Below are positions 12,780 through 55,280 of a stretch of DNA of 64,000 nucleotides, piece by piece. The first letter of the stretch is position 1; each line of letters begins with the position of its first letter. The stretch is from the NCBI GenBank assembly GCA_037176845.1, contig JAYKXP010000115.1, forward strand, positions 94,799 through 158,798, given 5' to 3'. The position numbers were made by a program, and so were the translations under genes. The notes beneath the pieces are model-generated. The model was not told where the DNA came from. It ran no database searches and worked only from the letters and a program-made list of their open reading frames with translations. This stretch comes from Paramarasmius palmivorus. Lineage: Eukaryota > Basidiomycota > Agaricomycetes > Agaricales > Marasmiaceae.

Positions 12780-13963
12780 TTATTCCATATCCATGGCCGC
12801 ATTAACAATGTGAAACGCCGTATATTCCCTGTACAGTGTAGTGAGTTATTGGGATCATGACCGCCGTATACAAACATACCCTTGAATGTCGATTTGGGAC
12901 TTGATGGTCGAAATATCATCGCGATCGGAGCCCAACACCGTTAATAAACGATGTTCTAAGTCTGGTGTAAAAGAAAACATGGCCCAACTCAACATGGTGA
13001 TACGGTTGATACTGGTCTGAATCCCCTCGATTTGACATATGACGGATTGAATGGTACGGACTAGCTGAATTTTCGTGGCCGACCTAAATTTGCGTAAAGA
13101 TTCGGCGAGGACAAAATGAACATGACCCAGATTGAATCGAATGGTAGGAGTAGCCCTAGCCATGTTGCCATGACCTGCACGCAGCAGAAGTTCGCCAAGT
13201 TCAACTTCTTGGTCGTGCGCCTGCCGAGTTAAACTGCTGATCTCCACTACTCCAGGTGTTAAATCAACAGATTTGGGAAGAATGGGGGTAGGAACGCACA
13301 TCTCATAGACTCGTTTTCTACCAACAACCGAACGTTATCACTCGCTACCTCCCTCCAACGCCCATTTATTTGATCCAAGGTCTGGCGAAGCCCAGCCGAC
13401 TCCGACTTTGACACCTCGATCTCCGAATGAATTTGGTTCACATAACTAAGGAAGAAAATATCAGCAGGTACATGCTAAGGATTAGGATGGAACACATTTA
13501 CCGGATTTGCTGTTGGGCCGTGTCCTCGAGCTCAGTAACACGGCTGAGGAAGAAAAAAAGGAGTCAGCACAGCCCCATCACAGTGCCATGACAATGAGTG
13601 ATGACTCATATATTCATACTTGTTCAGAGACGCAATCGTTTCCTCCTTCCCTTTCAACTGCTCCTTCAACTCCCGAATCTGCTTCTCAAGCATCGATATT
13701 TTGGCTTTATCGCGGAGGCTCTCCGCGGTCCATCCGAAGTCAGCAACCCTTGCATCACGTTCCTCGTCTTTCGATATCCTAATCGCGTCAATATTCAGGA
13801 ATCGGAACACTTCAGGAGAATACGCCCATGCTTACTCGGGTAACCCAGAAGAACCAGTCTGAGTAGCTGGGTAAGCTATTATCGTTTCTTTAGCACTCTT
13901 CAATCCAATAATGGAAGCCTTAGCTTTTACAGCAGCAGTCACGGAGGCACGCCGAGGAGACAT
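12780..13963 (-). CDS. antisense spliced coiled-coil gene carried by gypsy-1
   Basis: On the strand opposite to gag-pol, ATG at 13963 opens a six-exon model ending in TAA at 12780 (291 codons): 13963-13836, 13778-13620, 13543-13502, 13445-13302, 13233-12880, 12828-12780. Every junction is phase 2. All introns are GT-AG except the fourth, whose donor reads AT (13301), so this copy may be mutated. Exons 2-4 predict a coiled coil (MLEKQIRELKEQLKGKEET). Exon 5 holds GNMARATP and LTVLGSDRDDIST, which pair with GNMARISP and VATLGSSRLDIP in the gypsy-2 gene at the same place. No known family recognised. The final exon is the least certain part. Confidence 0.6.
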
Positions 13964-14331
13964 AGTTGGAATATCGAGTATACTAAGAGATGTAGAAGTC
14001 GAGAGAAGCACTAGAAGACTATAGCAATCCTATTCCTCCCAAAATCCCCTTTATATCGCCACCACCATCACAAACACTGTACTACCTCCTCGGAACACCT
14101 TTCACACCGCTAACATGACCACTACCATCAGCAACCACACTCGTTCACCCATCTCCTTCACGAAATCACCACGAGGCCATTACGGGTCTACATATTTATC
14201 GTAGAAACATCCAATACTCTCTCACCTCTTGACATCCAACACTCAAACATGAGGCTGCAATGACCCTACGACGGACACGGACTAGGTTGCGGAAGGATCC
14301 AGGACACCCTAGCCTTCGAAGGCTCAGGCCT

Positions 14332-14344
14332 AAGGAGGGGGAAA
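14332..14344 (+). other. polypurine tract of gypsy-1
   Basis: AAGGAGGGGGAAA lies directly upstream of the 3' LTR, where plus-strand DNA synthesis is primed during reverse transcription. Confidence 0.85.
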
Positions 14345-14781
14345 TGTTAGGATTTATCCCAACAAGAAACATCTCTTCGACAAACACCATATCATATCTA
14401 CGTCGACCACCTCACCATTTAGCTATCCTTACATCAGGGCTGCACATACCGTACATCATTCCTTATCCGCTCCCCCATCCATCCCCGCAATCCCATGTGA
14501 TCGTGTTAACTGTAATTATCCCGAAGGTTCTAGAAATCCTTCAGTTCCATATATTTACTTGCTCATTACTTGTTCAAAAGCCATTCTCGGTATTTTACAA
14601 GTGTACCTACATACACAACTATCTACGAAATACTGATATCTTCCTTCTCTCTCAATCTAACCTGAGTGATTAACTGCGTGAATTGACATCTGCTTAGCGG
14701 CTTTCTGAGTTCTACACAAATTGAACATTACTCATCTAACCATCTTTAACCTCGCGTACACAATTTAGGTCGATCCTAACA
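14345..14781 (+). repeat. 3' LTR of gypsy-1
   Basis: 437 bp, the same length as the 5' LTR, starting TGTTAGGATT and ending GATCCTAACA. It keeps the C/G state at the three sites where the copies differ. Followed directly by CACAC. Confidence 0.93.
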
Positions 14782-14786
14782 CACAC

Positions 14787-17012
14787 CTGAAAAGATAAGC
14801 AAAACACCCACCTTTCACACTGTCATGGATGCCATCCATAGTTCTCATCTGTATCAACGCAACATCAAACCTTCCGGGTATAACATGCCCATACTTGTCC
14901 CTCTTCTCTGGCTCCGCATGAATTGAATCGACAATGTATTTGGGAGCTCGAGTGATGCTATATGGATCACACTCGGTGAACTTGATGCGATGAAATACAT
15001 TTACCTTGTAGAAAGGTACATATGCTAGTACGCCCCTGGTGGCATTCTGAAGGGCAGCTGTATTCAAGCGAGTTCCGGGACTACGGGCTTGGGCAATATA
15101 CTCTCCAAGAGTATAGAGAAAGTCCTTGGCACCATATTCCTCTACTAGCTGCGAGAATGTGACACCATTCCTGGAAGCATGGCGTGCCATTTTGAGTTCC
15201 CTGTGAGGGACAAGAACTGGCGGATGTTTCATGGTGGAGGATGAAATTGTTGAGAAAGTGGGTGCAGCGCCGGTGGACAGCCGGCGGCGAATGAAACGAT
15301 CATGGCCCATGATCTGCTCTTTATGTTCGAGCCAAACTGTCATTTGTGAGTACTCATCTTTGTGATTGGTCGCAGAGTAAGCATCTTTGGTCGTGTCAAT
15401 ATGGAGTCGTTTGGTATACTCGGTGCTGTAGTTGTCGGTAGTGCCATAGCGTTCAATAAACATGTGATAGTGGCTACATGCATGAAGTTTGGGCAGATTG
15501 AAGTTATTGCTTATACCGAGGTCGACGAATATCTGTTTGTTGTCATGGAAGCAGCGAAGGGCATTCTCAAGGCTGCCTAACATCTCTGTGGAGTGAACTG
15601 GGTATTGAGCCAGATATAGGAAGTCAAGCATTGCACGAACAGCTCGGATGAGTCACTGAGAGGACTGCCCATTAGGAAGAGGTATATCAATGATAATGCC
15701 AAGTATGAACTGGCATATTTGAGCATGTTCGGTGCCAGTGATACGGGATAGGTGAGATATACCACCAAGGAAAAGGTGTATTTGATGATTTGGTGGAAGA
15801 CGGCGACATCGAGCGTCAATCTCCTGTGGACCAAACAGCTGTTTAAGCCATGAGATGACGTGTTTGACGACACCTTGCAACAATTGATGCAAGATATCTG
15901 GGGTGATGGAAAGGAAGATATTTGTGTGCTGGAGGTTGCGCCAGAAGATATTCTGGATGGGTTTGAGCCCGACCGTGTGGCAGGACTCATAAAATGTACT
16001 GTATCCTTGGTCAACAGACTTTAGTGCACTGAGGACGGAAGGAAGATCGTGAGGTACGCATCCAGCATCAAGATCACCCAATGTGTCCTTCGCAATAACC
16101 CCAACGGGGCATTCATTATTCTTCAAAGCGGAGACCAATAGCTGCTTGGGGTAGTCGCCGACAAATGCACCATAAACAGGATGTCCACAATGTACAGTGC
16201 CATTGCCGCTCACAAGATTGATGCCCTTATTAGAGGCAGAGACCGCACAAAGGACATGCATGTGTGAAATAGGTTGGCGAGGACACAACAACGGCTAGCT
16301 TTAACCTTGATATGGGAGAGCTTTGTGGTGGGGAGATAGGCTATGAGGATCTGCCCTTGGCGCGAAGGCTTGCAACATATAGATTTCGGAAGATTTCCAA
16401 TTGTAAGGTAGATGGATTATGCTTGTTTATTCCGAAACAGTGTTACTTGGGTTTTATCTGATGAAATGATTATTGGTACTACTGTTGCTCCTGGATGCTG
16501 CCATTCAAACTCAACCTGAGGACATCCAATGGTCATGAGCAAGTTAGCTTAGCAAAGAAGAACACGACGTACCTGAGTATCCCACCACCAATTTCCGGTA
16601 TGCATATCGTGATATAGCCAAACATTTTTGGTACTGTCCTTGTAGTGTCTCTCTGGTGCGAAGACCAGGTATGGTGTGAACTCTGGGTCAGCCCAAAGAG
16701 CTCGTATACATTCAAGGAATAATTCGGTTGAGTTCGATTGCTGATGAGTAGGAGAGACCAAGAGCTGCTGAGAGCTGAATTGAGCATGTGAGCGCAATGA
16801 CCTTGACATGGGAATCTGATTAACGTACTTACCCCCTCAATCTGCAACAATTCAGTGACCGCTGTTGAACCCGGACCTTGGCCCACCGTGCAACCTCCCA
16901 GTCCATCCTCGATACGAACAGAGCATATGGATTGTCGCTCGAGCCCACAATTACCTGTGAGTATCGTTGATCTGTGTTTCGTTTGTGCTGATGAACGGGT
17001 GCACCTGCTAGT
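14787..17012 (-). pseudogene. Plavaka transposase, core region
   Basis: Minus-strand exons carry blocks typical of Plavaka transposases: RMDWEVARWAK (about 16900), ECIRALWADPEFTPYLVFAP and YHDMHTGNWWWDTQ (about 16700-16570), then a long frame 16291-14787 with HLLQGVVKHVISWL-like, LDFLYLAQYPVHS, FNLPKLHACSHY and ERYGTTDNYSTEYTKRLHID blocks. The protein would cut and join the transposon ends. Two lesions are visible: a TGA at 15653 where the frame otherwise continues, and a loss of a few bases near 16875 that breaks the frame between WARWAK and GPGSTAV. Copia-A cuts off its N-terminal exon and gypsy-1 its tail. Introns are present, so exact exon borders were not fixed. Confidence 0.85.
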
Positions 17013-17377
17013 TGTTGGAATTCTAAATATAGATATCACTAGACAAGTTATTTTCCACTTTATTCCGCCTATGCCACAATTACTAAGAAAGCAGATATAC
17101 ATAGAACAGTAGCTTTGACCCACTTGTACCACCATTTACTGACAGTTACTGACACTGACTGTGCAGTTATTTCTAGTTCACTTAGTATCTATTATCGTAC
17201 CTTTAGGATTATATTTCATCCTCACTCATGTATAAAAGCTAGACAGAAAACCCTACAATAACATAGACTTGGTTTTAATCATCTTGTGTTCTCTCAACTC
17301 CTCTGGTCATCAGCTATCGTTTATATCGCGCTTTCTGCGCTATCACTGCTAACAGAGTTCAATCTAAAACTCTGACA
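17013..17377 (+). repeat. 5' LTR of copia-A
   Basis: 365 bp, TGTTGGAATTC...AACTCTGACA. Its 3' end contains the inverted motif CAGAGTT and AACTCTG around an 8-base loop. A TATA-like TATAAAA at 17231-17237 probably sets transcription start. Confidence 0.93.
17231..17237 (+). promoter_or_regulatory. TATA-like box in copia-A 5' LTR
   Basis: TATAAAA, about 147 bp before the LTR end. The same box appears at 20115 in the 3' LTR and at 51450 and 55472 in copia-B, so it is kept between diverged copies. Confidence 0.55.
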
Positions 17378-17390
17378 GGTTATGGGCCCC
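17378..17390 (+). other. primer binding site of copia-A (half-tRNA type)
   Basis: GGTTATGGGCCCC follows the LTR without a gap. It complements the anticodon stem-loop of initiator tRNA-Met (CAU anticodon), the mode known for Drosophila copia and yeast Ty5, where a cleaved half tRNA primes synthesis. The identical site follows the copia-B LTR at 51588. Confidence 0.75.
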
Positions 17391-17560
17391 GGTCTATAAA
17401 CCTTAGCCGAACCAGAGTAATACCGATTTCATATTGGTATAGTGGCGAGTTTGGGACGCCGTAATATCCCCAAGGAACAAGAACCAAGATTGTATATCGA
17501 TTGGCGAGCAGGGACGCCGGAATATCCCCTACCCAAAGCAAAGGACTATTGGACTAGTGT

Positions 17561-19870
17561 ATGTCCGATAGAGGTAGCCGTTATCAATCCAGAAGCGGTA
17601 CCCCAGTATCAGGAACGTTCAACCCAGAACAAATATTACGAGGATCTAGGAACCCTAGCAGGAATCCTAGCAGGACACCTACACCAGTAGGAAGTAGAAC
17701 AGGCAGTCCATTGGGACAGCGACAGATTATTCCCACCAGCGGGAACATCAGCTTCACAGGAAGAAACTGTTGAAGAAGAGATCAAACTTGCTGAAGAGTT
17801 TGATCAGGAAACCGAACTTGCTGAAGAGTTCAAACAAGGATTAGGATTTGGTGAAGAATCCGATAAAGAAGAACAGGACCTAGAAAAGGAACAAGAGCAG
17901 GATAAAGAAGACTCAGAACAGGAATCAGAAGCTGATACTGATAAACCTGTATCTGACGAAGACAAAGGAACACCTGACGAAGAGAAGGACGATCAACCAG
18001 AATTGCCCAGCATAGGTCCCAAACCCAAACCGAGAACACCATCTCCCAAGAGACCACCAAAGGAAGAATCATTTGATTCAGACGAAGAAGAAGACAACAT
18101 GTCTAAAGCAGTCAAAGCATTTAACGACTGTACCAAGTTAAAGGACGATGGTTCAAATTGGGGCATGTGGGCAATGCGTGTAGAACTCGCAGCAAAGTCG
18201 ATAGGGTATGGGAAATACCTGACTACTGCAGAAAAAGGAGACGCAGATGCCAACCTCATGAACGCAATTGTTGGAAAATTGCCGGACACCATACTTCAAA
18301 GATATCGAAATGCGGAAACATCACAAGCATTATGGACAGGATTAAAGAAGGATTACGACACAAAGAATCCTTTGACAGAAGCACACCTGGAACGCAAGCT
18401 ATACAATCTATCTTGCAACGACGTTGGCAAAGTCAATGAACATATTGACGAACTCCTCAATATCCGAAACGAACTCACATCACGAAACATCACTATTTCG
18501 GATGATCAGTTCAAGAATGCATTAATTGCATCAGTTCCCCAATCATTGAATTCAACAATCACAGCTGTCATGACTGTATACAGTGAATCAAACAAGGATT
18601 TAACTGTTGACAAGCTGATTGCTGCTATTCGAGCTCAAGCAAATGGACAAGCAATGCGCCGAGGAAAAGTCAGGAAAGAGGAAGCCAATTATTCCCGAGA
18701 TCATTCCAATAATAGAGGCCGAGGATTTAATAGCCGAGGAAGAGGCCGGAGATTTAATGATCGTCAGGGTGGAGATAGAGATCACAAAGAGATCACATGT
18801 TTCAGATGCCAAGGAAAAGGGCATATTGCCGCAGGATGTCGTTCAAAGCCAAAATCCAGGAAATCAGATGATGAATCTGAGGATAAAGAGAAGTCCAAGC
18901 AAGCTAAAGATAGCCAATCATGGCGAAAAGGAAAAGAGAAGGCCAGCAGTACCAAGGAAAGTGCTGTTAAAGCATGTAGAAAAGAAATATGGGAAGAAGG
19001 CACATGGTTAGCCAGGGAAATAAGGGCAGTAGAAGAATTTGTGCCATCCAATGAATGGAATTTGAAGAAGAAGCCAAATCCGCGTCGACAGAGACAAACT
19101 GGAGCATATCCCAAGGAAAGGAAGAAACAGCATACATGGCCGTGGAAATGCACACCACAATGGCCACAATGGTCGATTTACAGACACCGATTGATAGCAA
19201 AGCGATCATATACAGAGAAAATCAAATGGATTCTCAACAACGCCATCAAGAAGGCTATACAGGACAACAGAAGAATCAACTACAGACAGCTACAGAGACC
19301 AAAGACCATGAAATTCATGGAGGACAGACATTCAAGGAGCACAATTGTTGCCAAATATGTCACCAATTTATCCAGCACATACTTATGGGGGAGAAATTGC
19401 ATCCAGAATGGCTGATGAAAGTCATAGGACAGAAGGATGAAACAAAGGAAATTACCCCAAGGGATGGAGAAATGGAACAGGAAAATGGAACAGACCAGAC
19501 ATTGGCACACAAGGAGAACAAGACAGATCCAGAAAGTCTTGAACCATTGCAGATATCACTCGTCGAGGGGGAGCACAAAAACTCGATCAACGACATTTCA
19601 GAACAAGTCGCCGAGATGAATCTCAATGCAGGAAACAGGTCACCAAAGGAAAAACAAGTTGGACCAAATAAACTTGTAAACGTCAATCCAACAGGAGAAT
19701 ATTCAGGAACGGTCAAAGAAGCGGAAGTGGAACCACCATATCACCAATACTACCACCGACAGAAGATTAAACACCGAGATCAACAGAACACAAAACATCG
19801 CCACCGGATCACACATAGGAATCACCGAACAGAACACGCGAACAAAGAATTAGAGTCAAACCCCGGATAA
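17561..19870 (+). pseudogene. gag: copia-A gag-like gene, frame-broken
   Basis: ATG 17561 starts the same N terminus as in copia-B (MSDRGSRYQSRSGTPVSG). About 360 bp present in copia-B are missing near 17728, which puts the start out of frame with the rest. The main frame (17730 to about 19060) has an acidic stretch, a capsid-like region of about 200 residues, and a CCHC knuckle CFRCQGKGHIAAGC at about 18799. A second shift near 19060 moves to the frame ending at 19870, which keeps a CQICHQF motif and the LVEGEHK tail also seen in copia-B. The protease block of copia-B is absent. The protein would bind RNA and form particles; enzymes must act in trans. Confidence 0.85.
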
Positions 19871-19883
19871 TTCCATCATCCAA

Positions 19884-19897
19884 GGTTTGAGGGGGAG
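19884..19897 (+). other. polypurine tract of copia-A
   Basis: GGTTTGAGGGGGAG directly before the 3' LTR; the identical tract precedes the copia-B 3' LTR at 55281. Confidence 0.8.
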
Positions 19898-20261
19898 TGT
19901 TGGAATTCTAAATATAGATGTCACTAGACAAGTCATTTTCACTTTATTCCGCCTATGCCACAATTACTAAGAAAGCAGATATACATAGAACAGTAGCTTT
20001 AACCCGCTTGTACCACCATTTACTGACAGTTACTGACACTGACTGTGCAGTTATTTCTAGTTCACTTAGTATCTATTATCGTACCTTTAGGATTATATTT
20101 CATCCTCACTCATGTATAAAAGCTAGACAGAAAACCCTACAATAACATAGACTTGGTTTTAATCATCTTGTGTTCTCTCAACTCCTCTGGTCATCAGCTA
20201 TCGTTTATATCGCGCTTTCTGCGCTATCACTGCTAACAGAGTTCAATCTAAAACTCTGACA
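19898..20261 (+). repeat. 3' LTR of copia-A
   Basis: 364 bp, nearly identical to the 5' LTR (transitions at GATRTC, GTYATT and in TTTRACCCRCTT, one base shorter in the C run). Followed directly by the duplicated CTAGT. Confidence 0.93.
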
Positions 20262-20787
20262 CTAGTATCTAAGGGAACTTCTCTACGACAATCTGTTCCC
20301 TTAGTCGTTCCTCAAAAGCCTGTCTGGAAGTGAAGGCATCTATCTCAGCTTCCGAGTCCAGCTCATCCACGTGGTACGGAACAGAAATCGGAGCAACTGG
20401 TGATGGTTCGTTCTCCGTAGTGGCCAATTCTTCATCTTCACCATCCCCTAAACCCAACTCTACCACTCCCTCTTCAATTCTACCAACATTGTCCTCAACC
20501 ATCCCGAAATCATCTGTATCATAATCATCACCGAAGTAATCTCCCTCGAATTTGGGTATTCCATCTTCGTCATCCGAGTCGCTCGAGAATTCCGGTATTT
20601 CACCTTCGTCGGTACTCATTCCATCTTCGTCATCCAAGTCACTCGAGTCAGAGTCAAGAGCCTCTGGAATGTATGATTGGAGTTGGTCATAGAGCTGTCG
20701 ACATGTGAGGTTTGGGCTATATTGGAGGTGCAGTTTGTATCCAGTGTAGGATGGTAGACGCGCGTTGCAAGCTGTACAGGTGAACAT
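20262..20787 (-). pseudogene. Plavaka transposase, N-terminal exon with zinc finger
   Basis: ATG at 20787 (MFTCTACNARL) opens a frame with a finger-like Cys/His pattern (CTAC...H...C, residues about 4-30) followed by a long acidic stretch rich in Asp, Glu and Ser, as at the start of Plavaka proteins. The frame ends at 20269, just before the copia-A insertion. The finger probably recognises the transposon ends. The TAG at 20269 may be intronic in the ancestral gene, because the next block lies beyond copia-A. Confidence 0.65.
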
Positions 20788-21006
20788 GGGTCAATGGAAT
20801 ACTGTAGTCGGCGATGTGGAACATGGCGACGGCTGCAGGTCCGGAGTTAGCGCAGAATGTTGTGGAATGTCGTGGAATGTTACTGAACGGCATCATTGGC
20901 ATAACCACGCTCCCTTCTTTCCTCAGCAACCACATTCCAGGCCTTATTTAACTTCTCGATATTCTACACTTCCCATTAACTACACCTTTCCTGCTGATAA
21001 TTTCTA

Positions 21007-23089
21007 ATGCCACCCAAATCAAATGTCAAGAGCTCCGCAAGGACAACGAAAGCCAAGGAGACTCACCGTCGTAACATTGAAAGACAGCGACAAGAGGAAC
21101 TGCAACGGGAGGAAGAGGTCAGGCAAAGTAGGGCCCAAGGAGGACACTTGGCAAAGAGAAAAGCTCCTGAAGGTGTGTATTCTCAAAAGTCTGTCATTTT
21201 CCTGTCGCTTACTGTGACATGTCTTGGCCACGAGCCACAGCCGCGAGAGTCATGGCACCAGTCATCAACTGATCCTCAGCATATCCCTGGGAAGTTCCGG
21301 TGGGGACGAGAAGCTCAACGAACAGTATGATATCCCTTAGTGTCCCATCAAACTCTGAACCATCAAAACAGGACGCTTTCCCTTCGGCTCAAGAGGATTT
21401 AGCCACAAATCTGGTACGTATATCTCGCCTCTATTGTTGCTCACAATTGCTAATTGGTTACTTGGCAAGACCAATACTGTACCTTCTATTCATGCACAAG
21501 GAACAGACAATATAATCGTGTAACTTGTCAACTCATTCTCTACTAGGTACCGCAACCTGCTCCCAGAATCACCAAGCCAACATGGAAGAGGAAACCAAAT
21601 GGCTTGCACCAGCAAGCGTTTGAGAACGAGGTAATTGGTTGCAATTTTACACATCTACAGAGGGCAATACTGATACACGTTCATCTTTATAGGCTCTGGT
21701 CTTGCTAGGGCATCCACATAACCCTAACAAGGATGCCGTCGACAAGGAATCAGGTATCAACAGATCTTGCCAAGTATCACATGCCAGAGTGAGTACCCTG
21801 TCAAGGTCATAACTCGTTTGTGCTCATTCTTCCCACATAGTCGTCTGAAATACATGTTTCCCTTGACAACAAGAGACCCAACAAGGTCACGCCTGGAACT
21901 GGAGGCCCAAATAGCAAGGGAATCACTGTTGTACAACAACCACCTGTGGAATGGGAGCCTCCTGCGCACCTGGTTCCTCACCCAGAAGGAGGCCGTTATA
22001 TAAGGATCAACAATCAGAATACCCGGGTCAGGTCAGTGATTCAGCGTGCTATGGATATTTCTGATCCCGAGATAGTTTTCTTGAACGCATATCCTGATCA
22101 CCGTGACATGATTGTGTCTACGCGTAACGCCCTGGTTCAAGCCGTACGTGAATACAAGAAACAATACCCAAGTGAAGGCTACGACAAGATCAAGAAAAGG
22201 ATTCAACATGATCGTGATTTCATGGAGAGAATGGGCGGCGTGGTATGGTTTGCTTGCCTATGATCCACATCCCTATGTACTGATCTGCTTGCAGGTCATT
22301 AATCGTTTCTCTAACACTCGCAGTCATGTCAAGAAGATTGCAGACACTTATGTCCTTGGATATGATCTTGGTAATCAGGGCAACAGTACAGACATCCGAG
22401 CTCAAGTAAAGACACTTCTGGATGCCGACAGCTACTGTTATCCTGGAACCTGGGAAGTTCTCCCTAACTATGTGAGTACAGATTATTCTCTTAGATCACC
22501 TTCCTCGCGGAACGTTGGACTTCTACAGCAATACAAGAGGCACATGGATAGACACAAGCCGTATTTGGTGCAGCCCATCATTGCTACCATGCGCCACCTA
22601 TGCTCCGGATACAAAGCCGACCAACACCTGGACCAATTCGGTTCAAGTATGGAGACTTTACCTCAAGAAAAGGAGGTACCGCCAGGCCTGGTTGCTCTTG
22701 CAGCTACCGCAGTAAGTCCATATACAGCATGCATGCCGTTTACTCAACCTTTTACTTTAGATCTTTGCCTCCCTTTGTGACTGGCAAACTGGTACCCTAC
22801 AGCATGTAGTCTTCAACTCCGGAAATTACCATACCACTTTCAATGGCCACATGCAATATCTTGAAGGAGTCTGCGACAACTACCTGGGACAGTATCATTG
22901 AATGATGCACAAACTGTACTGTATGGTCTTGTAAGTGGCAACTAAATCATGTTAAAGGCGTTTATTGCTCACAGCCATCCTCCGATAGCATCAATTCAGC
23001 TCCTGAGTCAACTCGTGACTTTACCAATACCATGTCAGTGGAGGACGCGGGAGATCCGGGGTTTTATGCCTCAGACTAGTATAGTTTAG
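21007..23089 (+). pseudogene. DUF6532-like gene, multi-exon, one in-frame TGA
   Basis: ATG 21007 begins a basic, Arg/Lys/Glu-rich N terminus. Several short introns follow (donors at 21172, 21633 and 22471, for example). The recognisable part starts near 22027: SDPEIVFLNAYPDHRDMI, VREYKKQYPSEGYDKI, then LVALAATA, FASLCDWQTGTLQ and a final YHTTFNGHMQYLE block. This order resembles the DUF6532 domain common in Agaricomycetes, of unknown function. A TGA at 22899 interrupts QYH-MMHKLYC where Arg is likely. The end is placed at TAG 23087 after a probable last intron from 22929. It lies divergent to the Plavaka transposase and inside the candidate inverted repeats, so it may be cargo of that element. 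Confidence 0.6.
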
Positions 23090-23286
23090 ACTGGTAGAAA
23101 GTGTTTGCTATTAACAATGAAATCTTGGTACCTACACTGACCCCAATTGACTGTCAATTAATGTGTCGAATGGTGCCCAAATGCATGTAAATGAAGACTA
23201 TTTTTGGGCTAACTGACCGGCATTGACAGCAATTGACGGAGGGGGACTTCGAATTAGGTCTGTTTGGCGCTAAAACATCTAATCCT

Positions 23287-23364
23287 CTAAAGCATCTATT
23301 TATGACCCATTAGACCTCATTGAGCCTATTTTGCGCCAATTCACGATTTGGGTTTTTCCTGATG
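23287..23364 (-). repeat. candidate right terminal inverted repeat of Plavaka element
   Basis: Reverse complement of the 2958-3035 repeat, ending in TTTTTCCTGATG. It shares the AAATCGTGAATTGG-like core and diverges inward. See the left repeat for limits. Confidence 0.4.
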
Positions 23365-35088: not shown

Positions 35089-35130
35089 TGTTAGGTACTA
35101 GTATAGAATGATAACTTTGATAGATAATAC

Positions 35131-36869: not shown

Positions 36870-37119
36870 CTTTTTTGTAAAAGTAGGTGGCAGTTATCAC
36901 AACGACTTTTGCAATTATCTGTGATAAAGACTTTAGCAAAGGTGGGTGATAAATAGTCAACTTTTGCTAAAGTGGACGCTTCCAATTGTTTAAAGTAGCT
37001 TTCACAAAAGGTTTTACAAAAGTGATTCCAACAGAATGACATTAGCAAATGGGATACAAGAGATGTAACTTTTACAAATGTATAGATGTATCTTTAGATA
37101 AAAGAACATGACAGACGCA
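36870..37119. other. AT-rich spacer with repeated TTTTGYAAAAGT-like words
   Basis: Words such as ACTTTTTTGTAAAAGT, ACTTTTGCTAAAGT and AACTTTTACAAATGT recur in both orientations. This could be the remains of a small inverted-repeat element, but no clean ends could be drawn. Confidence 0.3.
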
Positions 37120-38010
37120 TTAAATACCATCGTCCCCTTCCATTACCATAAGCCTATCACTGAGAGTGATATCTAGTTCCTCTTCCTCACTCTCATCCTC
37201 ACCCTTGTCCTCGTCCTTGTCCTCATCTTCATCCTGCTTGTTGCCTAGGTTCTCCTGAGGTTCATCTTCATCACCGCTGTCATCCGTGGGGCTTTCTTCA
37301 GCACTGCTGCTATCATTGTCATCATCATTGATACCACTGTCAGTATAGTCGCTGTCGGTAGAGTCGGTATCACTCTCGTCATTGTCATCGGCATCACTGA
37401 GAGTGTCACGCTTCCTCTTTGATGACGATGCTGCATTCTTGGATGAGGAAGCATGTGCAGCAACAGTTGATGTTGTGGGGATAAGGGGTATGTAGGGTCT
37501 TGCTGCCTTTGCTTTTGTCTTGTTCCATTTCACAGTAAACCGTTGCGCGATCCTTTGCTTGATGGCCGCCCGTTGGTGGGCATAGGCTGAGCGGCCTTCA
37601 GAATGGGCAGGAGTAAATCCTGGTATATCTGCCCGCTCTTTCCACCACTTTTCTTCCCATACCAGCGATGCCAGACAATGCTGCATTTCTTCTTGAAGAA
37701 GGAGTACTTTATGCCATCGACAAACACGAGCATACACCTTACAATACTCAACCCGAAGTCCTGAAATGTATTGTTAGTAGAGTAGATGCTTGGGATAGAA
37801 CAACTGACCATCTTGCAAAGCTTGAGCTGTAGATAGACCACTAAGACATCCTGCAGCTTCCCAGATCCAAGAAATCAATTGAGTACTCTCTCCGGTGCCT
37901 GGTAGAGGTATAGCACCAGATTGCTTCCGACGCTTGGCTGTTGCCCGTGCATGTTTAGCTGCTTTCTTCTTCTTCTGTGCCTTATCGAGATCGTCCATAC
38001 AATGAATATC
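37120..38010 (-). pseudogene. KDZ transposase, C-terminal fragment (KDZ-1)
   Basis: Two exons joined by a GT-AG intron (about 37760-37805) read LPGTGESTQLISWIWEAAG, then GLRVEYCKVYARVCRWHKVL and LLQEEM, followed by a long acidic Asp/Glu/Ser tail. The SWIW...RVEW.K.RAR.RW.EE...LLQEEM pattern is the C-terminal region of KDZ transposases. Everything upstream is missing: at 38010 the LINE A-tail abuts the frame, so the LINE landed in or beside this gene. It is a different copy from KDZ-2, because both carry their own version of this tail. Confidence 0.75.
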
Positions 38011-38022
38011 TTTTTTTTTTTT
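38011..38022 (-). other. poly(A) tail of the LINE
   Basis: Twelve T on the plus strand mark the 3' end of the inserted LINE copy next to the KDZ-1 frame. Confidence 0.65.
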
Positions 38023-39905
38023 GGTGGTACGTGTCAGTGGGCGTTGACACAACACAGACAACTGTATGTAAACTAGCCTCTGAGTTGTTTTCATAGGTTG
38101 ATTAGGGTACATTTATCATGTCTTCCCATTTTGCGAAAAAGAAACAACTACCCCAAGGAAATGCACTCATCCCATCTAGGATATTGCACACGGCAACTAC
38201 CATGGTGTGGGGATTTGAGCTTGAATACTTTATCCGTCATCTCACTGGCGGAGTATTTGTTCTAAGGGCTCGACACCCACTAAAACCCCGGGCATCTTCA
38301 ACCAATCCATGGTCCCATTCAGACATTGGATCACTTTCTCCCATGTTTTCTTAATGGTGAGAACTGCAGCAGGTCGTTGTTTATGAGATTTGCGGTTTGC
38401 GAGGAGTTGGTCCTGACAGAGGTGGCAGTTGACAATGGCCTTCAGGTGGTTATAAACTTCTTGGTGCATAGGTGGGGTTTCTCGTTCTTCAATGACGTAT
38501 TCGCACCGGATTTTCCATATTAGATGTGCGTATTCAGAGGTCAGGATCCAAAAAAGGTGTTCAGCTTCAGGTTTAGGGTTCCCTTTGTCATCTTTGATCT
38601 CAACGACACCACTTGCCAATGCCAGACCAATTGACATTTCTGGCTATGCTCTGTACTCTTTGGGCCATATGGTTGCAGCGGTGTCCCAGATGAGCTGTCT
38701 CCAGGGGTGAGTGCAGTGGATGAGAATATGTTCCATAGATTCTTCGGTTTGACATTTTTTGCAGTCGACTCGGTCTTTGCAACCTGGAATATGTTTCCAG
38801 AACTTGCCTGTTCTGTGAGCGCCATGCAAGGCCAAGTATGTAAAGTTTCGTGCTCATTTTGACAGCGATCAGTCTTTGATGGCTTTCCAGATGCGTCTCT
38901 TCGATGGTGTTTTGAGGAGGTAGCGTTTGAGGTTGCTTTGGATCTTGGTTATCGTGGATGCTGTTCTCTTTCGGTCAGGGGCCTTTCCTTTTTCCCTAAT
39001 AGCCTTATAGGCAAGAGATTGAGTTAGTGAGGACAGTTTGATTCCTGGGTTATGGGTGCTGGGGGTGAGGAGTATAGGGAGATGTGCTGGAGTGGTTGAT
39101 GAGAGACCATGTCTTGCCAGCTGGTTGGCAGCATCGTAGGCAGTCTTGTTATCAGCTCTGGATGCCTTCTGAAGGACAGTAGGTGCGGTTCATTTCCGCA
39201 GGTTGGACAAGAGGGCTCAGAGGATCTTTGCGTCTTTGACCCAACAAATCCTTTGTTGTCCCAGGTACGCAGGTCTTTCTTCATTCTAGCTAGTGTTATA
39301 TCACTGAGAGTGTAGATGATTAGGGGCGTGGACTTTGGGGCAGTACAGATTGCGTGTAATACGGCAGCAGCTTCTGCTGAGGGGAGTGTTTGTCATATGT
39401 CTTTTGGAAGGCGGAGTGATAGGTTCCACGGATCGTCAGGGCCGAACCAGACACCAGCCCCCGCAATTGCTTCCTCAGTGTGGGGGTCTTTGCATGTTCC
39501 TGCGCAGTATATTGAGGTAGGTTGTGTTTCATTGGTCTGTGTACGTGTAGGGCTTACAGTGATGGTGTTGGTAGTGATATCCAGTTTAGTAAGGACTCAG
39601 TACCCTTCAGCGATGTTTTCAACCTCAAAGAATGGGTCTATGAGGAGGTTATCTTCTTCTAGGGGGAAATTTGGTGGTGGGATAGGTGCGTGATTTGGGG
39701 TTAAGGGGTTCCATTTACGTTTCAGCTGTTGGAGGCAATTACTGGCCATGACGCAGCATCGGTATGGGTTCCTACATCCATTCTGATCCCTATCATACAT
39801 GCAGGCGGTGCACTCGCAGGCAGAGGAGTAGAGGTGATCTTTGATGTCCAGTCTAGCTGCCATTTGGGCACCTTCACCTATGCACCCATGAGCGCTAGAT
39901 TAATC
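38011..39905 (-). mobile_element. 5'-truncated LINE: RNase H and C-terminal region, with A-tail
   Basis: Read on the minus strand: a Cys-rich block (CECTACMYDRDQNGCRNPYRC) at about 39820, an RNase H-like domain (YCAGTCKDP, AGAGVWFGPDDPWN) at about 39500, a zinc-knuckle-like block (GCKDRVDCKKCQTEESMEHI) with HCTHPWRQLIWD at about 38780, and SEYAHLIWKIRCEYVI at about 38550. This order is the end of fungal non-LTR elements. It finishes in 12 A (12 T on the plus strand, 38011-38022). The reverse transcriptase is absent, as expected from 5' truncation. Stops include TGA at 39597 and 39393, and the frame shifts more than once. RNase H has Ala where the first catalytic Asp is expected. Confidence 0.7.
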
Positions 39906-39907
39906 TA

Positions 39908-42900
39908 TTAAAGTCCAAAGATTGTCACCCCTTTCTGCCACATGCTGGAGAATTTCTGTCCCAGAGAGGTATAAACATCGGCTTGACAAAGAGCGTATGC
40001 ATCTTTGGCCTCATTGCCGGTGACTGCATGCCCTTGCCAGACAGATGCTGTCCAATTGAATGCTTCGAGGACTCAACACATCTCTTCAATAAGAAGAAAC
40101 GATTCCTCTTTCCATCAGTTAAGTCGAGCATATGTCTTGGCCCATTCAATGCAAGGGCCTGGTCAAATATGTGAGAGAGGCAGGACACCAGAGACAAGTG
40201 GGAACGTACTGTTGTGCAAGACATCATCAGAGGCATATCCGCCCCCATCTCCTGCTACCCATATCCATGATACTACCCGCTTGCCTTCACCTGTTTGCTT
40301 GACAATCTTGTCACGCTTCTGCTGCCATCGCTTCAAGGCTTCAGCAGGTGTCTCGTCTTCATCTGTCCCTTGCTCAAAGTCATCGTCGATACTGAGATCA
40401 CGATCCCCAAGCTGATCCCCAGACCCCGTAACCACCTCAGCTCGTTCTGCTGTTGTCTGCATGGTTCGCGTCTTCCTTGAATTACCTACTGCCCCATCCT
40501 CAGGATCCTCCATGCACCGTATATCTGATCGTTTGAGCTCTCTCCAGCTCAAAGTCGTGCCTGTCCGCAAAGACAATACACGAAGCGCAGACCATGCATC
40601 CAGGTACCTCTGAGAGTGAAGCCGGATCTTTGACTCGTTGAGATTGAGAAGCGTATTGGAGCGTCGTAGCTTTTCCTGGTGTCGAGCATGTAGACCTTTG
40701 TATGTCCGTAAGCGCCATTTGATGAGAAGCTGGTTTCTCATTTTGTCGAGGCTTTCGGAACACTGTGCATTTCGGAGCCAGGCTTCTATGACTGATAGAT
40801 CTGGGCCTGGACATGACTTCACTTGGGCTTCGGAGAGCTGAGAGGGGAGATAGAGCGGTACGTTTTCGGGCTGGACAGGATTTTCGGTGGCAGAGACTTG
40901 GAGTGAGGAGATGATGGGCATGAATCAGTTCTGCTTCCTCTCGAAGGCACCAAGAAGCCGTCGGAGCTTGACCCATTTATCGAGAAGGTTAGCTGCTTGC
41001 CTTGATGTTGGACGCGAAAGCTTCACTCGTGCGTCTTCTCGGAGTTGCCGTCTATTGAAGTGGTGAGAACACAAGCAAATACTTGAGCTAACCACATACT
41101 GCCGTTCCTCCATCTCAAGAGCTAGAAGAATGAATTCCCCAGGTCCGCTTGGAGCCAGGTCTTGATCGGGACTTCCAGACATCTTGAGTCTGCTTTCATA
41201 CTCTCTTGCAAGCTCCTCCCGTACCGTCTGTATGGTGATAGTGGATGTGGGTGGTGCATACGGATTCAGTTTGGAACTGTCTGCTTCAAAATCCTCGACC
41301 ATCTTTTTCCAGACAGGCACTTGTGAAGCCTGGTTTCGGTTAAGGATGTCGAAAGCATGCTGTTGCTTAGCCAGCCAGGTTTTGGTGAGTTTCCATCTCC
41401 TCGTTAACAGTGAACCTAGTATGAGTTTAGTGTGAGCATAAAACGAAAAGGCAGAACACAAACCAAGGCCTAGAATCTTCCTCCAATTCCAATTTGCCCA
41501 ATGATCGTCTAAGGTGTCATGCCTGGAGCCCGGTCCCATTTCTGTCATACTTGTAGCTATCGGACCTTGTCCTGCCCAGTTTCTCTCGATGCCCTCTCCG
41601 TCGGTCCTACCAACTCCTGGTGTCAAATTTAGGGAGTATGCAAGCTGGCAGGATAGCTTGTGTCCGTAAATGTGGAGTTTGGGTATCACAAAGAGGAAGC
41701 AATGGATTGCTGCAGGCCGGACATGAAGCGGTAAGGCACCAATACGGTCGATGAACTTGCGGCAGTACTGACAACAGATATCGTAAGACAAGCAGATCTT
41801 GAGCTTGTGACTATGATATCGGAGGAGCGAGGCTACAACCCAGTCGACGTTGCAGTACCTGTAAATTCATTAGAATGAAATACAGTGAAAGATAACTATG
41901 TACCTTTCGCCTTTTTGTAAGTCTCCGACGCCGTTTGGCTGTATCATTTTATGCCGAGCACAGCAGCCAAGCGCAACGCCAGATGAAGCATAATTGCCCC
42001 TTGCATTTCTTGAATTTGCGTGATCCAGAGCGGCCAGCCCTGAGCAGCTAGACATCTATTGCAGAGCCTGTGAGTATGCATGTCTTTGGTCAGAAGTTTA
42101 CAAACCTCACCTCAGCCTCGCTAGTTCTGTCCTTGAGATACGAACAATACGGTTCGTCCTCGACCATGTATGCCCATCCTGTCCCCAAACCTGGATCATA
42201 GTCTTCGCTTGACACAAGCTTTCATTTCAGACAAAAGCAGGCGTCAACAGCCAGGAACATCGTATAAAGAAACCTATCCTGAAATAAATGAAAGACACTT
42301 GGGAAAGTTGTGTTACTTACTTCTTGTCCTCGCTAACGTCTTCCCAGGTCACCGGCAAATTGACACCAACTTGGGGACATGCTGGACATAAGAGAGCTAA
42401 CTCTCCAGCTTGTGTCTTGGACACATCAATTTTTTTATTATTACCCTTTCCTCCTCGCTTCAGCATCTTGAGGTGGCGGTACTGCCTTGCTGTCCTTTGG
42501 AAAGAACGGTAACGATTCTATGGTGTTGACATTACACATTGCAAAAGAACGATTAACAGAATCACATACCTTGAACTGAAACCTCCCGCAATCGTCTGTA
42601 AGTTTTTCCAGCGCTCGATAATAGTCATACGCGGATATCTTCCCGAGAAGTGTCATAGCGTGGAAGTTCTCCAGAAGTCTGAAGGTGAAGCAGGTTTGTG
42701 GTGCAGAATGTGTCGCTGGATACCACTCATATCTGAGTAACTGCTGGCGTGGGTGAGATTGATCTAGGGATCTGTAACAGCTGCAGTAGTTGACAGCAAC
42801 ACGGTGAAACCCATTCATATGAATAACAGTGAAATTGGCCGCGCAGGCCGCGGACCTTGGCACTGTGAACCATCGATATGGCCAAGCTGGATGCTAAGCC

Positions 42901-43618
42901 CAAGGGTGTGCAAAGAAGCTCGTCTAAAGAACTTGCCATTCCACATCTAGACAACCAAGATTAGCCATTGCAAAGGAAACGAGTAGCAAAGAGAAAAATG
43001 TACCTCAATAACGTCCAGGGGCTTTCTCCTGTGTTGCTCGACGATACACTGCCGGCAAACCAGCTGCATTGAGCAACAATCCCGACATCGGTATAGCGGA
43101 GCACGACCAGCTTGGTTGCATGAAAGACAGAGCTCTCGGGAGTTGTCGCCGCGACCCTCTCTTGACATGAACACCTCCAAGTACTCATTTCGATAAGGCA
43201 TCCATTCTTTCATCACAGTATCCTAGAATTCAAGTAAGCATGGGTCATTACATATAGAATGGTGAATCACCTTTTTCACTTTTTGTTTTTCTTTCTCTTT
43301 GCCCTTTGTCGTGCTTACACCCTGCGGTTGCTCCGCTAATAGATCTGCCGAGAAAGAGGCAAAGGCATCAAAGCCGTCTGAGGAGATAGGTTTAGACGAC
43401 GACGACACGACAGGAGTATTAGTCTTCTTGACCGGAGAATCAATAGGCAAGCTGACAGGCTCGACAACAACTCGACGACGATCATTTGAAAAACTAGAAA
43501 TGAATGCCGTAGGTTTTGAATGTTTGGTGTCATGGTCGGAGTCATCAGAGTTGTCGAAGTCTTGTGGGGTAAATGTGCGTATAGGAGACGATCATTGGCT
43601 GCGTTTACGACCGCCCAT
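39908..43618 (-). pseudogene. KDZ transposase with CxC2-type cysteine cluster (KDZ-2), near full length
   Basis: ATG 43618 to TAA 39908 with several GT-AG introns. In order: an acidic N terminus; a CxC2-like cysteine cluster (CLSCNQAGRAPLYRC, CCSMQLVCRQC) at about 43130-43030; a CxC2 continuation (FTVIHMNGFHRVAVNYC, LLRYEWYPAT, CFTFRLLENFHAMTLLGK); then the KDZ domain (GVGDLQKGERY at about 41925, SYDICCQYCRKF at 41790, PKLHIYGHKLSC, GRTDGEGIERNWAG, MGPGSRHDTLDDH) with acidic residues suited to a DDE-type active site; and the tail (EWAKTYARL). Four premature stops, at 43592, 40925, 40115 and 40073, are all TGA and all fit Arg. No other stop or frameshift was noticed, so this copy has decayed only by that route. 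Confidence 0.85.
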
Positions 43619-44749
43619 GGTTCAAGAGCTGGAGCTGCTGCATGCTTTTCTTTAAAAGCAGAACACCTGCTCTATGTCTAGACCAAAAATCAGCCCCAAC
43701 TTTCCAGATAAAGGGCTGCGAACACACCTGAGCATCAATTCTAGCGAGTATCGACCAGAAATCCAACAACGTGCTGCTTTCGGATGGAAATCGGTGAGGG
43801 AATATCGGAGAGAGTGAACATCGACAAGACAGAGTAGGTGACTCGGGAGACTCGGTAATGCGTCACAAACAACCTAAGTATAAGTGGTGGGCTCTGCGAA
43901 TTTGGGTCACTAATAGAACTATAGGACACAGCAGAAGCCCAGTAAAAGACCACAAATACAAAGATTCAGTAGATGCTGGTTATGAACAGCAGCACACTAG
44001 TGGTGACTAGTTGTGCAAGTGTGGTTTGACGTGATCAGAGTTGCCGTACTTAGAATAGTACACAAACTATAGATCTGAGAGTGATGATACGCTCTTCGTT
44101 ACTTCAAAAGCAATCGAGATACACCTTATATTAGGGGCGACTAAAGGTTACGAATGCTTATAATAGGGTAGGAAACAGTCCCAAGTGCTATAGGTAGCAA
44201 TCTCGAGTTCAACCAATACTGCCTCAAGTGTACTGATTCTGATAGAATCAAATCAACGAACTGTGCGTAAGCAGGAATCCAACTGACTCTCCAAATGGTC
44301 AATCTGGGCCTCTCTATGTCACTGAAGCTTATAAAAGCTAGTCCGAGGTCTAATCTCTACACAGAAACGCAATGCAACCAATGCTTAGAGCTACAGATCA
44401 CAAGCCAAATACTTGATCTCTCTGCCAATACAACTCAAGCTCTTGTATACAGTAAGGTCTCAACTAGACTTTCAATCTAGGGCCTGTCCTGAGGAAGTGG
44501 AAGTGAATGCAAAGGTCGTCAATAGATCAACCAGGTCTGATCAGAGGTTGACTCGTAACAAGCATGAAACACCACTGGATCAACTTATATAAGAGGTCCA
44601 ATCGAAATGCACATGTGCCAGCAGATCAACTATCAGATCAAAGAGGTCTATTCGAGCGACAGCCACATACAACCTAATGATATGGGCTAACAGTACACTC
44701 TCTCTTTGTCTTCTCTGCCCTTCTACCTACAAACTGCAAGCCTATATAT
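43619..44749. other. spacer, nothing recognised
   Basis: About 1.1 kb between KDZ-2 and the gypsy-2 LTR. Only short frames without motifs. The 5' flank and promoter of KDZ-2 would lie at its left side. Confidence 0.4.
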
Positions 44750-45308
44750 TGTTAGGAATCGTTCACGCGAGCGATTACTATGTCAAAGTTGGAGTCAAAG
44801 GGCTTGCCAAGCGACGAGCTAAATGGCGAGTTAATGGATTAGTAAATGTTAAGAAAGGTTGTAGAGAAGCAGTTAGTGTTCGAGCTGTTCACGCGGGAGA
44901 AGCGGCGAAGCTGAAAGATAGATAGATTTCGATGTAAAAGATACACAAAACCTGCTATGAGCAGGTAGATATGAGACGAAAGCTTTATATACCGTCTAGG
45001 ATCTTCGGTAGCGTAAAAGAAGCGCACAAAGGTGAATGCAAATGACTAGGTATGAGTAAAAATGACTATGAGTAGATGAAGAGTTGTCAGTATAGTCCGG
45101 AAACGATCATATGATATGCATCGTGATATACGCGTGTTGATGGGGACTGTCAGTAAATATAGGTATGATTGATGCAAGAACAATGAGGTCGCACATGAGG
45201 CTGTTAGTTTGATGAGCCGACGTCAATCCTATGAGTGTACAGTAATGTCCGACAAAGGGCCGAGTGGGGATGAAATGAAGGGGGCGAAAGATTGTACGAT
45301 TCCTAACA
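44750..45308 (-). repeat. 3' LTR of gypsy-2
   Basis: 559 bp, bounded by the 13-bp inverted ends TGTTAGGAATCGT and ACGATTCCTAACA. It shares only the outermost bases with the gypsy-1 LTR. No second copy is in the window because the other end of the element is lost. The minus strand reads a G-rich polypurine tract (GGGGGGGTAC) immediately before it. Confidence 0.85.
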
Positions 45309-45318
45309 GTACCCCCCC
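45309..45318 (-). other. polypurine tract of gypsy-2
   Basis: Plus strand GTACCCCCCC, read as GGGGGGGTAC on the element strand directly upstream of the LTR. Confidence 0.65.
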
Positions 45319-45588
45319 GTTCAGACCCGAGTCTGCAAGGGTCATTTGAGTGCGATAGGAGTAGGAGAAATGTGGGACCAGCGACATGAGGATGAATAAG
45401 TAAGTTGGTTGTCGAGTTCGTATTGAAATATTCATGTGGATAATCCGGAGAGATCAGAACGTGCTTCAGGGTGGAGGATTATGAAGTCTGGGCAAGGGAT
45501 TGGTGAGGAGTGACATTGGGAAGACGGCGTAGGATGTCGACGGTTTAAATAGACTGATATCGAAGAGTACAGACATACCGTAACAGCC

Positions 45589-46882
45589 ATGGCCTCTTTT
45601 GCTATCGACTACACTCGTGCTTCGTCCTTTGAGTCCAGCTTGTACGATCCAGCCGGGGACAAAGACAACGTTGCCGTGATCGAGATATCGGACTCCGAGG
45701 AATCATTACTCGACAACCTTGATGGAAACCATTCTTCAGCCATGGTACTCGCTCCTCTTGTGAGCGTTTCTGATGAGGGGTGAGTATTTTGGAGTTGGTC
45801 GAAGGGCATAACTGATATACCTAATCCTATCACAGCGTCTTGCTCAATGGTCCTTTAGTGTCCTCGGTCTTCCACGATACTCTTCGGCGGGTCCAAGTCC
45901 AGGAGGCAGCGATTATTAGTCGGGATGAAGAATTGAAAGAGAAAAATCAGTGGGTGACGATGACGGTGAGATACAGGATGCGTGTGCTGACATAATATGT
46001 CTTCCCTTCTGTTGTCAGCGTCATTGACCAGCTTCAAGCCCGACTATTAGCACTTGAACATGAAAAGGTAATGGCCAAGGAGGAATGGGAAAGGAAATTT
46101 GAATTCCAGAACAGGTGTGTGTCACATTTCGTGAGCTTCTAGGTGATACTGATTCCAAGTTGCAGGGTGATTATCTCCTTGGATCGCAACATTGAAAAGG
46201 CACTTGAAGCCAAGGACGAATGGGAACTGTCTTGCAAGGAGGCTGAACATCGAATTTCTTTTCAAGAGTCGGAAAATGCACGTCTCCGGGAGAATTTGAC
46301 CAAATTGGAGGCACAATTTCATCGTGCCGACTCGTATATTTGCACACTCGAGGATAAAGTCTGCACTATCCAGGCTAGCAAGAAGGATCTCTCGGAAAAC
46401 CTTCTTATGGCTCGTCGTGGGAACATGGCTCGCATTTCTCCAGCCTTGTTCAAAGCTCTTTCCCTATTGATGAAGACTTTATGGAAACCCACGACTTCTC
46501 CCTTCATGCCCAGTCAAGACCTTCTGATTCGCGCCTTAGGAGAAGGACTCCAACAGGTCGAACAACTGTTTTTCTTCATCATCCGGGCGAACATGATAAG
46601 TCGGATGATAACCGGTGATTTCGACGAGGGGGATTTGGTGGCCACACTGGGCTCTTCTCGATTGGACATTCCTCGAGTAGAGATGCACCTCGGTCCTACT
46701 GGGTAAGTTCAGTATATTCTTCTGTTTTGGTTCTTTGGCTTGACCCGACGATTTCTAGACAATTCACCTATCCTCCTGGAGCAACGCTTCCGCCTACCGC
46801 TCCTCGTGTTGACGCTAACATTCCTCGTGGGTCGAAACGTCCTCGAATTGAAATGGAAGGGGATATGAACGAAAGGGATTAA
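45589..46882 (+). CDS. antisense spliced coiled-coil gene carried by gypsy-2, intact
   Basis: ATG 45589 to TAA 46880. Exons 45589-45779, 45836-45949, 46019-46114, 46166-46702 and 46759-46882 sum to 354 codons (353 residues). All four introns are GT-AG, about 50-70 nt, and all are phase 2. The N terminus is acidic (VIEISDSEESLLDNLDG). Exons 2-4 predict a long coiled coil (ERKFEFQNR, KALEAKDEWELSCKEAEHR, SENARLRENLTKLEAQFHR). The C-terminal block has GNMARISPALFKAL, QQVEQLFFFIIRAN and VATLGSSRLDIPRVEM, followed by a basic RGSKRPRIEM that could be a nuclear signal. The gene lies between pol and the 3' LTR, opposite to the element, like the gypsy-1 gene at 12780. No known family recognised; function unknown. 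Confidence 0.75.
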
Positions 46883-55250: not shown

Positions 55251-55280
55251 AGTCAAACCTCAGACCATTCCATAATCCAA

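Follow-up and report, generated by a model that had tools for sequence, protein, structure and literature searches.

The window, a 64,000-nucleotide stretch of Paramarasmius palmivorus DNA, holds two gypsy elements that each carry a multi-exon gene on the strand opposite to gag-pol, between pol and the 3′ LTR. In gypsy-2, a minus-strand element, this gene (group A, 353 aa; 45589..46882, plus strand) runs from an ATG at 45589 to a stop ending at 46882, with five predicted exons (45589-45779, 45836-45949, 46019-46114, 46166-46702, and 46759-46882) and four GT-AG introns, all in phase 2 (45780-45835, 45950-46018, 46115-46165, and 46703-46758). The ends of these introns coincide with the four junctions proposed in a preliminary description of the locus (45779/45836, 45949/46019, 46114/46166, and 46702/46759). 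In gypsy-1, a plus-strand element, the corresponding gene (group B, 296 aa; 12780..13963, minus strand) runs from an ATG at 13963 to a stop ending at 12780, with six predicted exons (13963-13836, 13778-13620, 13543-13502, 13445-13300, 13246-12880, and 12828-12780) and five introns (13835-13779, 13619-13544, 13501-13446, 13299-13247, and 12879-12829). For each slot, one single spliced reading yields the NCBI protein letter for letter at 100% identity (VNI00_010690 for gypsy-2 and VNI00_016033 for gypsy-1), in agreement with the earlier claim that both elements harbor such a gene at this position.

The gypsy-1 element is delimited by plus-strand LTRs at 3517..3953 and 14345..14781 (99.3% identity) and by the target site duplication CACAC (3512-3516 and 14782-14786). 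The integrase part of its pol (10830..11921, plus strand; PF00665, PF17921, PF24626) is divided by a TGA at 11919-11921 from the chromodomain at the end of pol (12000..12143, plus strand; PF00385, E 6.5e-12). On the minus strand, gypsy-2 displays the reverse transcriptase, RNase H, and integrase start of pol (47826..50090; Pfam profiles), an interrupted chromodomain (47085..47303; tblastn 56%), and a 3′ LTR (44750..45308), to which the LTRs of two relatives, C117 and C255, align at 44750-45065 and 44750-45019, respectively; no partner for this LTR was found within the window. The partial, interrupted chromodomain of gypsy-2 scores 19.8 bits with Pfam, below the cut-off of 25.1, and in its intact relative on contig 117 (C117) the chromodomain match spans 73 residues. 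The carriers belong to a chromodomain Ty3/gypsy (chromovirus) family: Pfam recovers the integrase and chromodomain in gypsy-1 and the reverse transcriptase and RNase H in gypsy-2, and tblastn finds chromodomain matches at all seven carrier loci in the genome. Neither window copy retains an unbroken pol; both antisense genes are unbroken.

The seven best integrase matches in the P. palmivorus genome (70-100% identity) are exactly the seven loci with the antisense gene; elements at 50% identity (C298, C380, C49, C143, and others) were left out of the slot survey. At 7/7 carrier loci the gene is antisense, 3′ of the integrase, and in the slot between pol and the 3′ LTR, so that the homologues at an equivalent position that the preliminary description called for are present throughout. 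One locus, C44, was rejected as a separate insertion because it shares its flank with gypsy-2 (99.28% over 8013 bp); as a duplicate of gypsy-2, it leaves six insertions. In each of the four elements for which both LTRs were found, the antisense gene lies inside the LTR pair, the two LTRs are nearly identical (99.3, 100, 99.8, and 99.5%), and exact 5-bp target site duplications are present; the antisense gene thus moves with the element.

Comparison of the antisense genes across seven pairs yielded a pN (0.17-0.33) far lower than the pS (0.67-0.78) in every pair, with divergence greatest at third codon positions in all seven (three rows with the C11 element, in the wrong frame, were left out of the pol comparison). 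In the five pairs with computable dS, dN/dS is 0.09-0.16, far below the value near 1 that had been named as evidence against the gene; by these measures, it is under purifying selection. Profile-profile comparison with hhalign places the window genes in two homologous groups, A (gypsy-2) and B (gypsy-1), at 97.6% (E 4.2e-12), and the C-terminal block alone gives 97.1% (E 6.6e-11), a score reached by 0/100 shuffles. In a sister group of elements, the same slot is occupied by another antisense gene, group C, whose hhalign scores against A and B (13.8 and 14.0) were reached in 22 and 18 shuffles out of 100, respectively, and which is apparently unrelated to them. The NCBI models may be ab initio predictions and are not independent evidence for expression, yet it is hardly credible that the antisense frames arose by chance or through faulty annotation, given the low pN relative to pS, the homology of groups A and B, and the identical introns and phases across carriers whose proteins share 53-69% identity. 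The pN/pS ratios and third-position divergence refute chance open frames as far as sequence allows, and the slot, strand, and predicted spliced frame of the gene are consistent throughout. The view in the preliminary description of an old, coding, intron-bearing antisense gene in a fixed slot of a chromodomain family is therefore supported.

Its statement that all introns are in phase 2 holds for eight of the nine in the two window models, the exception being the gypsy-1 intron 13299-13247 (phase 1). The phases are 2,2,2,2 in all four group A genes and 2,2,2,1,2 in both group B genes; four introns correspond between the groups in order and phase, and the third and last of these interrupt an identical residue, R and G, respectively. 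Retrotransposons normally lose sense-strand introns, and we infer that the four matching introns were kept through the split of the two element groups because splicing can remove them from the antisense transcript alone. The four elements with target site duplications and near-identical LTRs agree with the earlier suggestion that introns on this strand would outlast retrotransposition. As for the proposed shared motifs, GNMAR is present in 6/6 distinct antisense proteins, but an S/T-P two residues past it in only 3/6 (the P alone in 5/6) and LGS.R.DI in 5/6, with the looser LG..R.DI in 6/6.

We examined two pairs of elements along their 3′ ends. Between C117 and C255, identity is 100% on the R/U5 side of the LTR and 99% at the 3′ end of pol versus 68% in U3 and 69% in the antisense gene; between gypsy-1 and a further carrier, C54, the respective values are 99%, 69%, 54%, and 61%. 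In both pairs, then, R/U5 is almost unchanged, and next to it U3 and the antisense gene have diverged together as a single block. As U3 adjoins the antisense gene, the two could travel in one recombination block with no functional link between them; in the E4/E5 pair, pol itself is mosaic. A TATA-like word, a candidate promoter, precedes the antisense ATG: in gypsy-2 this is TTTAAATA (45544..45551, plus strand), 45 nt upstream, with equivalents at 46 and 45 nt in C117 and C255, and in gypsy-1 it lies at 14050..14055 (minus strand), 92 nt upstream, with one at the equivalent place, 90 nt before the ATG, in C54. In 6/6 cases such a word lies no more than 120 nt from the ATG, each with an 8-13% chance in shuffled sequence, the words having been chosen after inspecting the sequences.

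All four group A proteins have KRPR near the C-terminus and a SIM-like word, V/I-I-E-I/L-S-D, near the N-terminus; both patterns were picked after viewing the sequences, and the latter has a 2-4% chance of occurring in shuffled sequence. The group B antisense proteins have neither, and so neither can be a mechanism common to both groups. Among the Pfam matches shown for the six proteins (E ≤ 1; the best 25 of 52 for P0005 and the best 25 of 31 for P0006), there are coiled-coil matches only, under the cut-offs, with no DNA-binding domain above the cut-off and no TRP28 (PF04195). The only bZIP match is PF07716 in P0001 (E 0.74; 10.4 bits against a cut-off of 22.3), and PF24161.2, listed by the database source for P0005, is absent among its best 25 of 52 matches. 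In the predicted structures (mean pLDDT 64.5 and 63.6), a long helix is modelled with confidence and the C-terminus only weakly; of the 93 PDB matches that Foldseek returned at E ≤ 10, none reached E ≤ 0.001, and thus no function could be assigned from the fold. One alternative is that the protein acts not on transcription but as an accessory of the integrase, e.g., as a tether between SUMO-rich chromatin and the pre-integration complex. Such a role would suit the two group A motifs, the SIM-like word and KRPR, as well as the occurrence of the gene, in this genome, only next to a chromodomain pol; however, group B retains the C-terminal domain with neither motif, pol already contains a chromodomain, and the gene diverges together with U3 rather than with the integrase end of pol, which makes this role unlikely.

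The preliminary description had also raised the capture of a host gene, which would then be carried as a passenger. Host genes typically contain spliceosomal introns, which would be kept in an antisense capture, but no host paralogue emerged: outside the carriers, the genome gave weak single matches to the antisense proteins (C29, C22, C48, C66, C35, and C90; E 0.024-1.58), the best at E 0.024 and 25% identity. Moreover, selection acts on the gene inside the element across groups, and protein searches returned matches from P. palmivorus only, with no Botrytis protein. The alignment-based search missed P0006 although this protein belonged to the query alignment, so that the lack of matches beyond P. 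palmivorus carries little weight; on balance, such a capture is very unlikely.

Backward genes of this type are already known in plants and one other fungal family; of the elements concerned, maize Grande is, to our knowledge, not of the chromodomain kind. The fungal case is Boty of Botrytis cinerea, described in the available text as carrying the antisense gene brtn (Zhao et al., 2011), which is also named for Sclerotinia sclerotiorum in the accessible part of a 2020 review (PMC7264820). The Boty gag-pol has a CHROMO domain, and hence the preliminary claim that such a gene was undescribed in a fungal chromovirus does not stand; brtn, in an ascomycete host, resembles the P. palmivorus gene by description. 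In the passages available from the same review (PMC7264820), gene23 of Grande (Tat lineage) lies in antisense orientation in the interval from pol to the 3′ LTR, has a promoter upstream of the gene, and encodes a nuclear protein; it shares slot and strand with our gene by description, those passages giving no introns for this plant gene. PvRetro13 ORF2 of Phaseolus, likewise a plant gene, is described there as occupying this slot in antisense and encoding an SMC (coiled-coil) domain (PMC7264820). Retand, from a non-chromovirus lineage of flowering plants, has a TRP28 domain in its antisense ORFs, which every cluster carries in a long stretch separating pol from the 3′ LTR, as far as the excerpted account goes (PMC11963269); the word 'intron' is absent from the text of that paper. 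The Pfam matches shown for the P. palmivorus proteins include no TRP28. HTLV-1 HBZ and APH-2/3/4, in the available portion of their source, are spliced genes on the antisense strand that precede the 3′ LTR and are transcribed from TATA-less starts within it; HBZ has a coiled-coil (bZIP) part and represses LTR transcription (PMC3391691). The P. palmivorus proteins show no bZIP match above the cut-off among those listed, and we draw an analogy only, claiming no homology. The 2020 review, in its accessible part, suggests that such transcripts may act as dsRNA (PMC7264820). Antisense transcription might limit copy number through dsRNA, or the protein might oppose host RNA silencing. The low copy number (six insertions) would agree with silencing control, but an RNA-only role needs neither purifying selection on a protein nor intact predicted splicing, and we consider this unlikely.

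In our preferred reading, to which we assign a probability of about 0.5, the antisense gene of the six insertions is maintained by purifying selection, with a predicted promoter of its own, four or five introns predicted to be spliced, and a coiled-coil product that likely regulates the LTR promoter of its own element. Transcription would start at the TATA-like word between the LTR and the ATG, and the introns would be removed only from the antisense RNA, so that a new copy would inherit them unaltered from the sense genomic RNA. The protein of group A would enter the nucleus via KRPR and may bind SUMO-modified chromatin proteins via the SIM-like word. The antisense protein would dimerize through its long helix and tune sense transcription from U3, like HBZ or probably gene23, with gene and U3 inherited together as a 3′ cassette. 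More tentatively, it is possible that U3 and the intron-rich gene form a matched, swappable cassette in which the promoter is accompanied by a dedicated trans-regulator that reads it, the slot having been filled at least twice by apparently unrelated antisense coiled-coil genes (A/B and C), and that the elements swap control modules while sharing pol.

Three features look new: the conserved multi-intron structure, the way in which the gene and the U3 side of the LTR diverge as a block, and the presence in the sister group of another antisense gene, apparently unrelated, that fills the same slot. The element pairs with a common pol and a different U3 and gene make it directly testable whether the antisense protein reads its own U3, and the introns are a ready marker: a spliced antisense read or a spliced copy would directly reveal transcription or retro-copying. 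With the P. palmivorus family, the short list of plant and fungal antisense accessory genes gains a member from a basidiomycete for which selection has been measured.

The two gene models that the preliminary description placed on the strand opposite gag-pol, between pol and the 3′ LTR of the chromodomain Ty3/gypsy elements gypsy-1 and gypsy-2, coincide with NCBI's annotation of the Paramarasmius palmivorus assembly (68.3 Mb, 393 contigs; the window lies on contig 115). The gypsy-2 model, which runs from an ATG at 45589 through four introns to a stop at 46882, equals VNI00_010690 across 353 residues and is one of two open readings obtained with varied acceptors, the other not being NCBI's; the gypsy-1 model (minus strand; ATG 13963, five introns, stop 12780) equals VNI00_016033 across 296 residues and is the longest among 133 enumerated. 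Since the NCBI models are possibly ab initio predictions, we do not count them as evidence of expression.

The antisense gene is part of the element. It lies inside the LTR pair in all four elements with both LTRs, namely gypsy-1 (437-bp LTRs at 3517–3953 and 14345–14781, 99.3% identical, flanked at either end by a CACAC target duplication) and three elements named after other contigs of the assembly, C117 (LTRs 100% identical; duplication GGTGA), C255 (99.8%; GACTT), and C54 (99.5%; TACTA). The latter three are young copies, as their pol frames are also uninterrupted (1418, 1415, and 1472 codons, respectively); pol and the antisense gene are convergent, with 108, 122, and 164 bp from stop to stop. 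For gypsy-2 a single LTR was found, and its pol is broken at 51273 by a Copia-like element (51272–55610; LTR pair 51272–51587/55294–55610, 95%), with 117 bp more of pol at 55610–55726; a second Copia-like element lies at 17052–20235 (LTR pair 17052–17351/19936–20235, 99%). A locus at a contig end (C44:2–8000) matches window 41534–49516 at 99.28%; we rejected it as a new insertion because the non-element flank is common to both, making it a duplicate of gypsy-2 within a repeat that is a haplotig or segmental duplicate. On C11, the gene adjoins the integrase close to the contig start, where no LTR pair was recovered; the N terminus is missing from the annotated protein, and C11:2043 offers an ATG in the same frame. 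Within gypsy-1, a MITE-like 274-bp insertion (12426–12699; terminal inverted repeats CTGGGGTATTTCGATTGATTCGG, TA at each side) separates pol from the antisense gene, and a proline-rich 475-codon open frame without a Pfam match (4191–5618) lies between the 5′ LTR and gag.

The antisense proteins fall into group A (gypsy-2, C117, C255, and C11; 53–69% identity to the gypsy-2 protein) and group B (gypsy-1 and C54; 61% identity), with 24–27% identity between groups. Profile comparison indicates that both carry one homologous gene (97.6%, E 4.2e-12): the C-terminal block without the coiled coil still matches (97.1%, E 6.6e-11), none of 100 column shuffles reached that score, and the reversed control of this comparison gave no match. 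That all introns are phase 2, as initially proposed, held for group A (2,2,2,2 in 4/4 elements) but not for gypsy-1, whose fourth intron is phase 1 (2,2,2,1,2 in both group B elements). The third intron splits an arginine (EFQN-R-V in A; QQQI-R-Y or NQQI-R-Y in B) and the last a glycine in both groups, whereas the first two agree only in order and phase; the simplest reading is an ancestral gene with at least four predicted introns. AlphaFold models of one protein per group agree: the head is disordered, a single long helix spans residues 70–217 in A and 61–181 in B, and three further helices are modelled with low confidence. All four group A proteins, extended C11 included, have a SIM-like N-terminal word (VIEISDSE, IIELSDSE, or VIEISDTE) and, close to the C terminus, a KRPR that is a candidate NLS; neither occurs in the two group B proteins.

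Comparison of gene pairs by Nei–Gojobori proportions gave pN 0.179 and pS 0.669 for gypsy-2/C117, 0.219 and 0.736 for gypsy-2/C255, 0.303 and 0.720 for gypsy-2/C11, 0.171 and 0.695 for C117/C255, 0.302 and 0.747 for C117/C11, 0.326 and 0.753 for C255/C11, and 0.227 and 0.776 for gypsy-1/C54. The proposed dN/dS comparison yielded 0.09–0.16 in five pairs, dS being saturated in the other two. Differences at codon positions 1, 2, and 3 were 0.22–0.39, 0.13–0.27, and 0.49–0.61, and introns were 42–71% identical over aligned bases. Judged from sequence, this is a real, selected accessory gene with predicted splicing.

Homologues at the same position, anticipated for related elements, were recovered within this genome: single-protein searches placed the gene at seven loci, which are the top seven (70–100% identity) of 101 genomic matches to the C54 integrase-chromodomain query. 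Outside these loci, the best genomic match to the antisense proteins had only E 0.024 at 25% identity. As a negative control, the C60/C87 family (integrase 41% identical) has no room for the gene, since the sequence shared by two copies ends about 430–470 bp past pol, LTR included. In-frame stops among the integrase copies are mostly TGA, the pattern expected if CGA codons had undergone C-to-T change.

A second antisense gene (group C) was detected in the same slot of a sister group of elements, at C153:22250–24600 (integrase 55%), as a frame chain with a coiled-coil-like stretch and, by our reading of the frames, one predicted phase-2 intron. Its last exon occurs at five loci (C153, C158, C185, and two on C120 that may be copies of each other), always antisense and 3′ of the integrase, and in 5/6 integrase matches of 54–59% spanning >200 residues, C175 lacking it; on C120 the exon is in tandem at 132502, 133060, and 133378. 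The C153/C185 pair has pS 0.815 and pN 0.201 over 158 codons, the C185 copy containing an in-frame stop. Profile comparison of the C153 gene with groups A and B found no homology; either the slot would have been filled twice, or the antisense gene would have diverged past recognition.

In C117/C255, the R/U5 side of the LTR (100%, 189/189) and the pol 3′ end (99%, 972/986) are nearly invariant, whereas identity falls to 68% on the U3 side, 78% between LTR and ATG, and 69% within the antisense gene; pol itself alternates between stretches of about 98% and of 72–88%. In gypsy-1/C54, the R/U5 side is 99% identical (189/190), against 54% in U3, 61% in the gene, and 69% at the pol 3′ end. In both pairs, U3 and the antisense gene behave as a single block. 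This contrast is absent in gypsy-2/C117 and gypsy-2/C255 (R/U5 72%, pol end 74%, U3 60 and 65%, gene 69 and 63%). By analogy with retroviral reverse transcription, the mosaic edges could have arisen through template switching between co-packaged RNAs, with strand transfer at R. The likeliest mechanism, to which we assign a probability of roughly 0.5, is that the antisense protein would regulate the element's own U3.

An antisense gene, brtn, is carried by the Botrytis cinerea retrotransposon Boty, whose gag-pol has a CHROMO domain according to PMC4227169. The word 'antisense' is absent from the text of the fungal element surveys PMC3248453 and PMC2864245, and none of the literature searched, comprising papers accessible without subscription, described an LTR retrotransposon whose antisense gene has multiple introns. 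Antisense accessory genes are a known kind, on which the multi-intron case predicted here would be a new variation.
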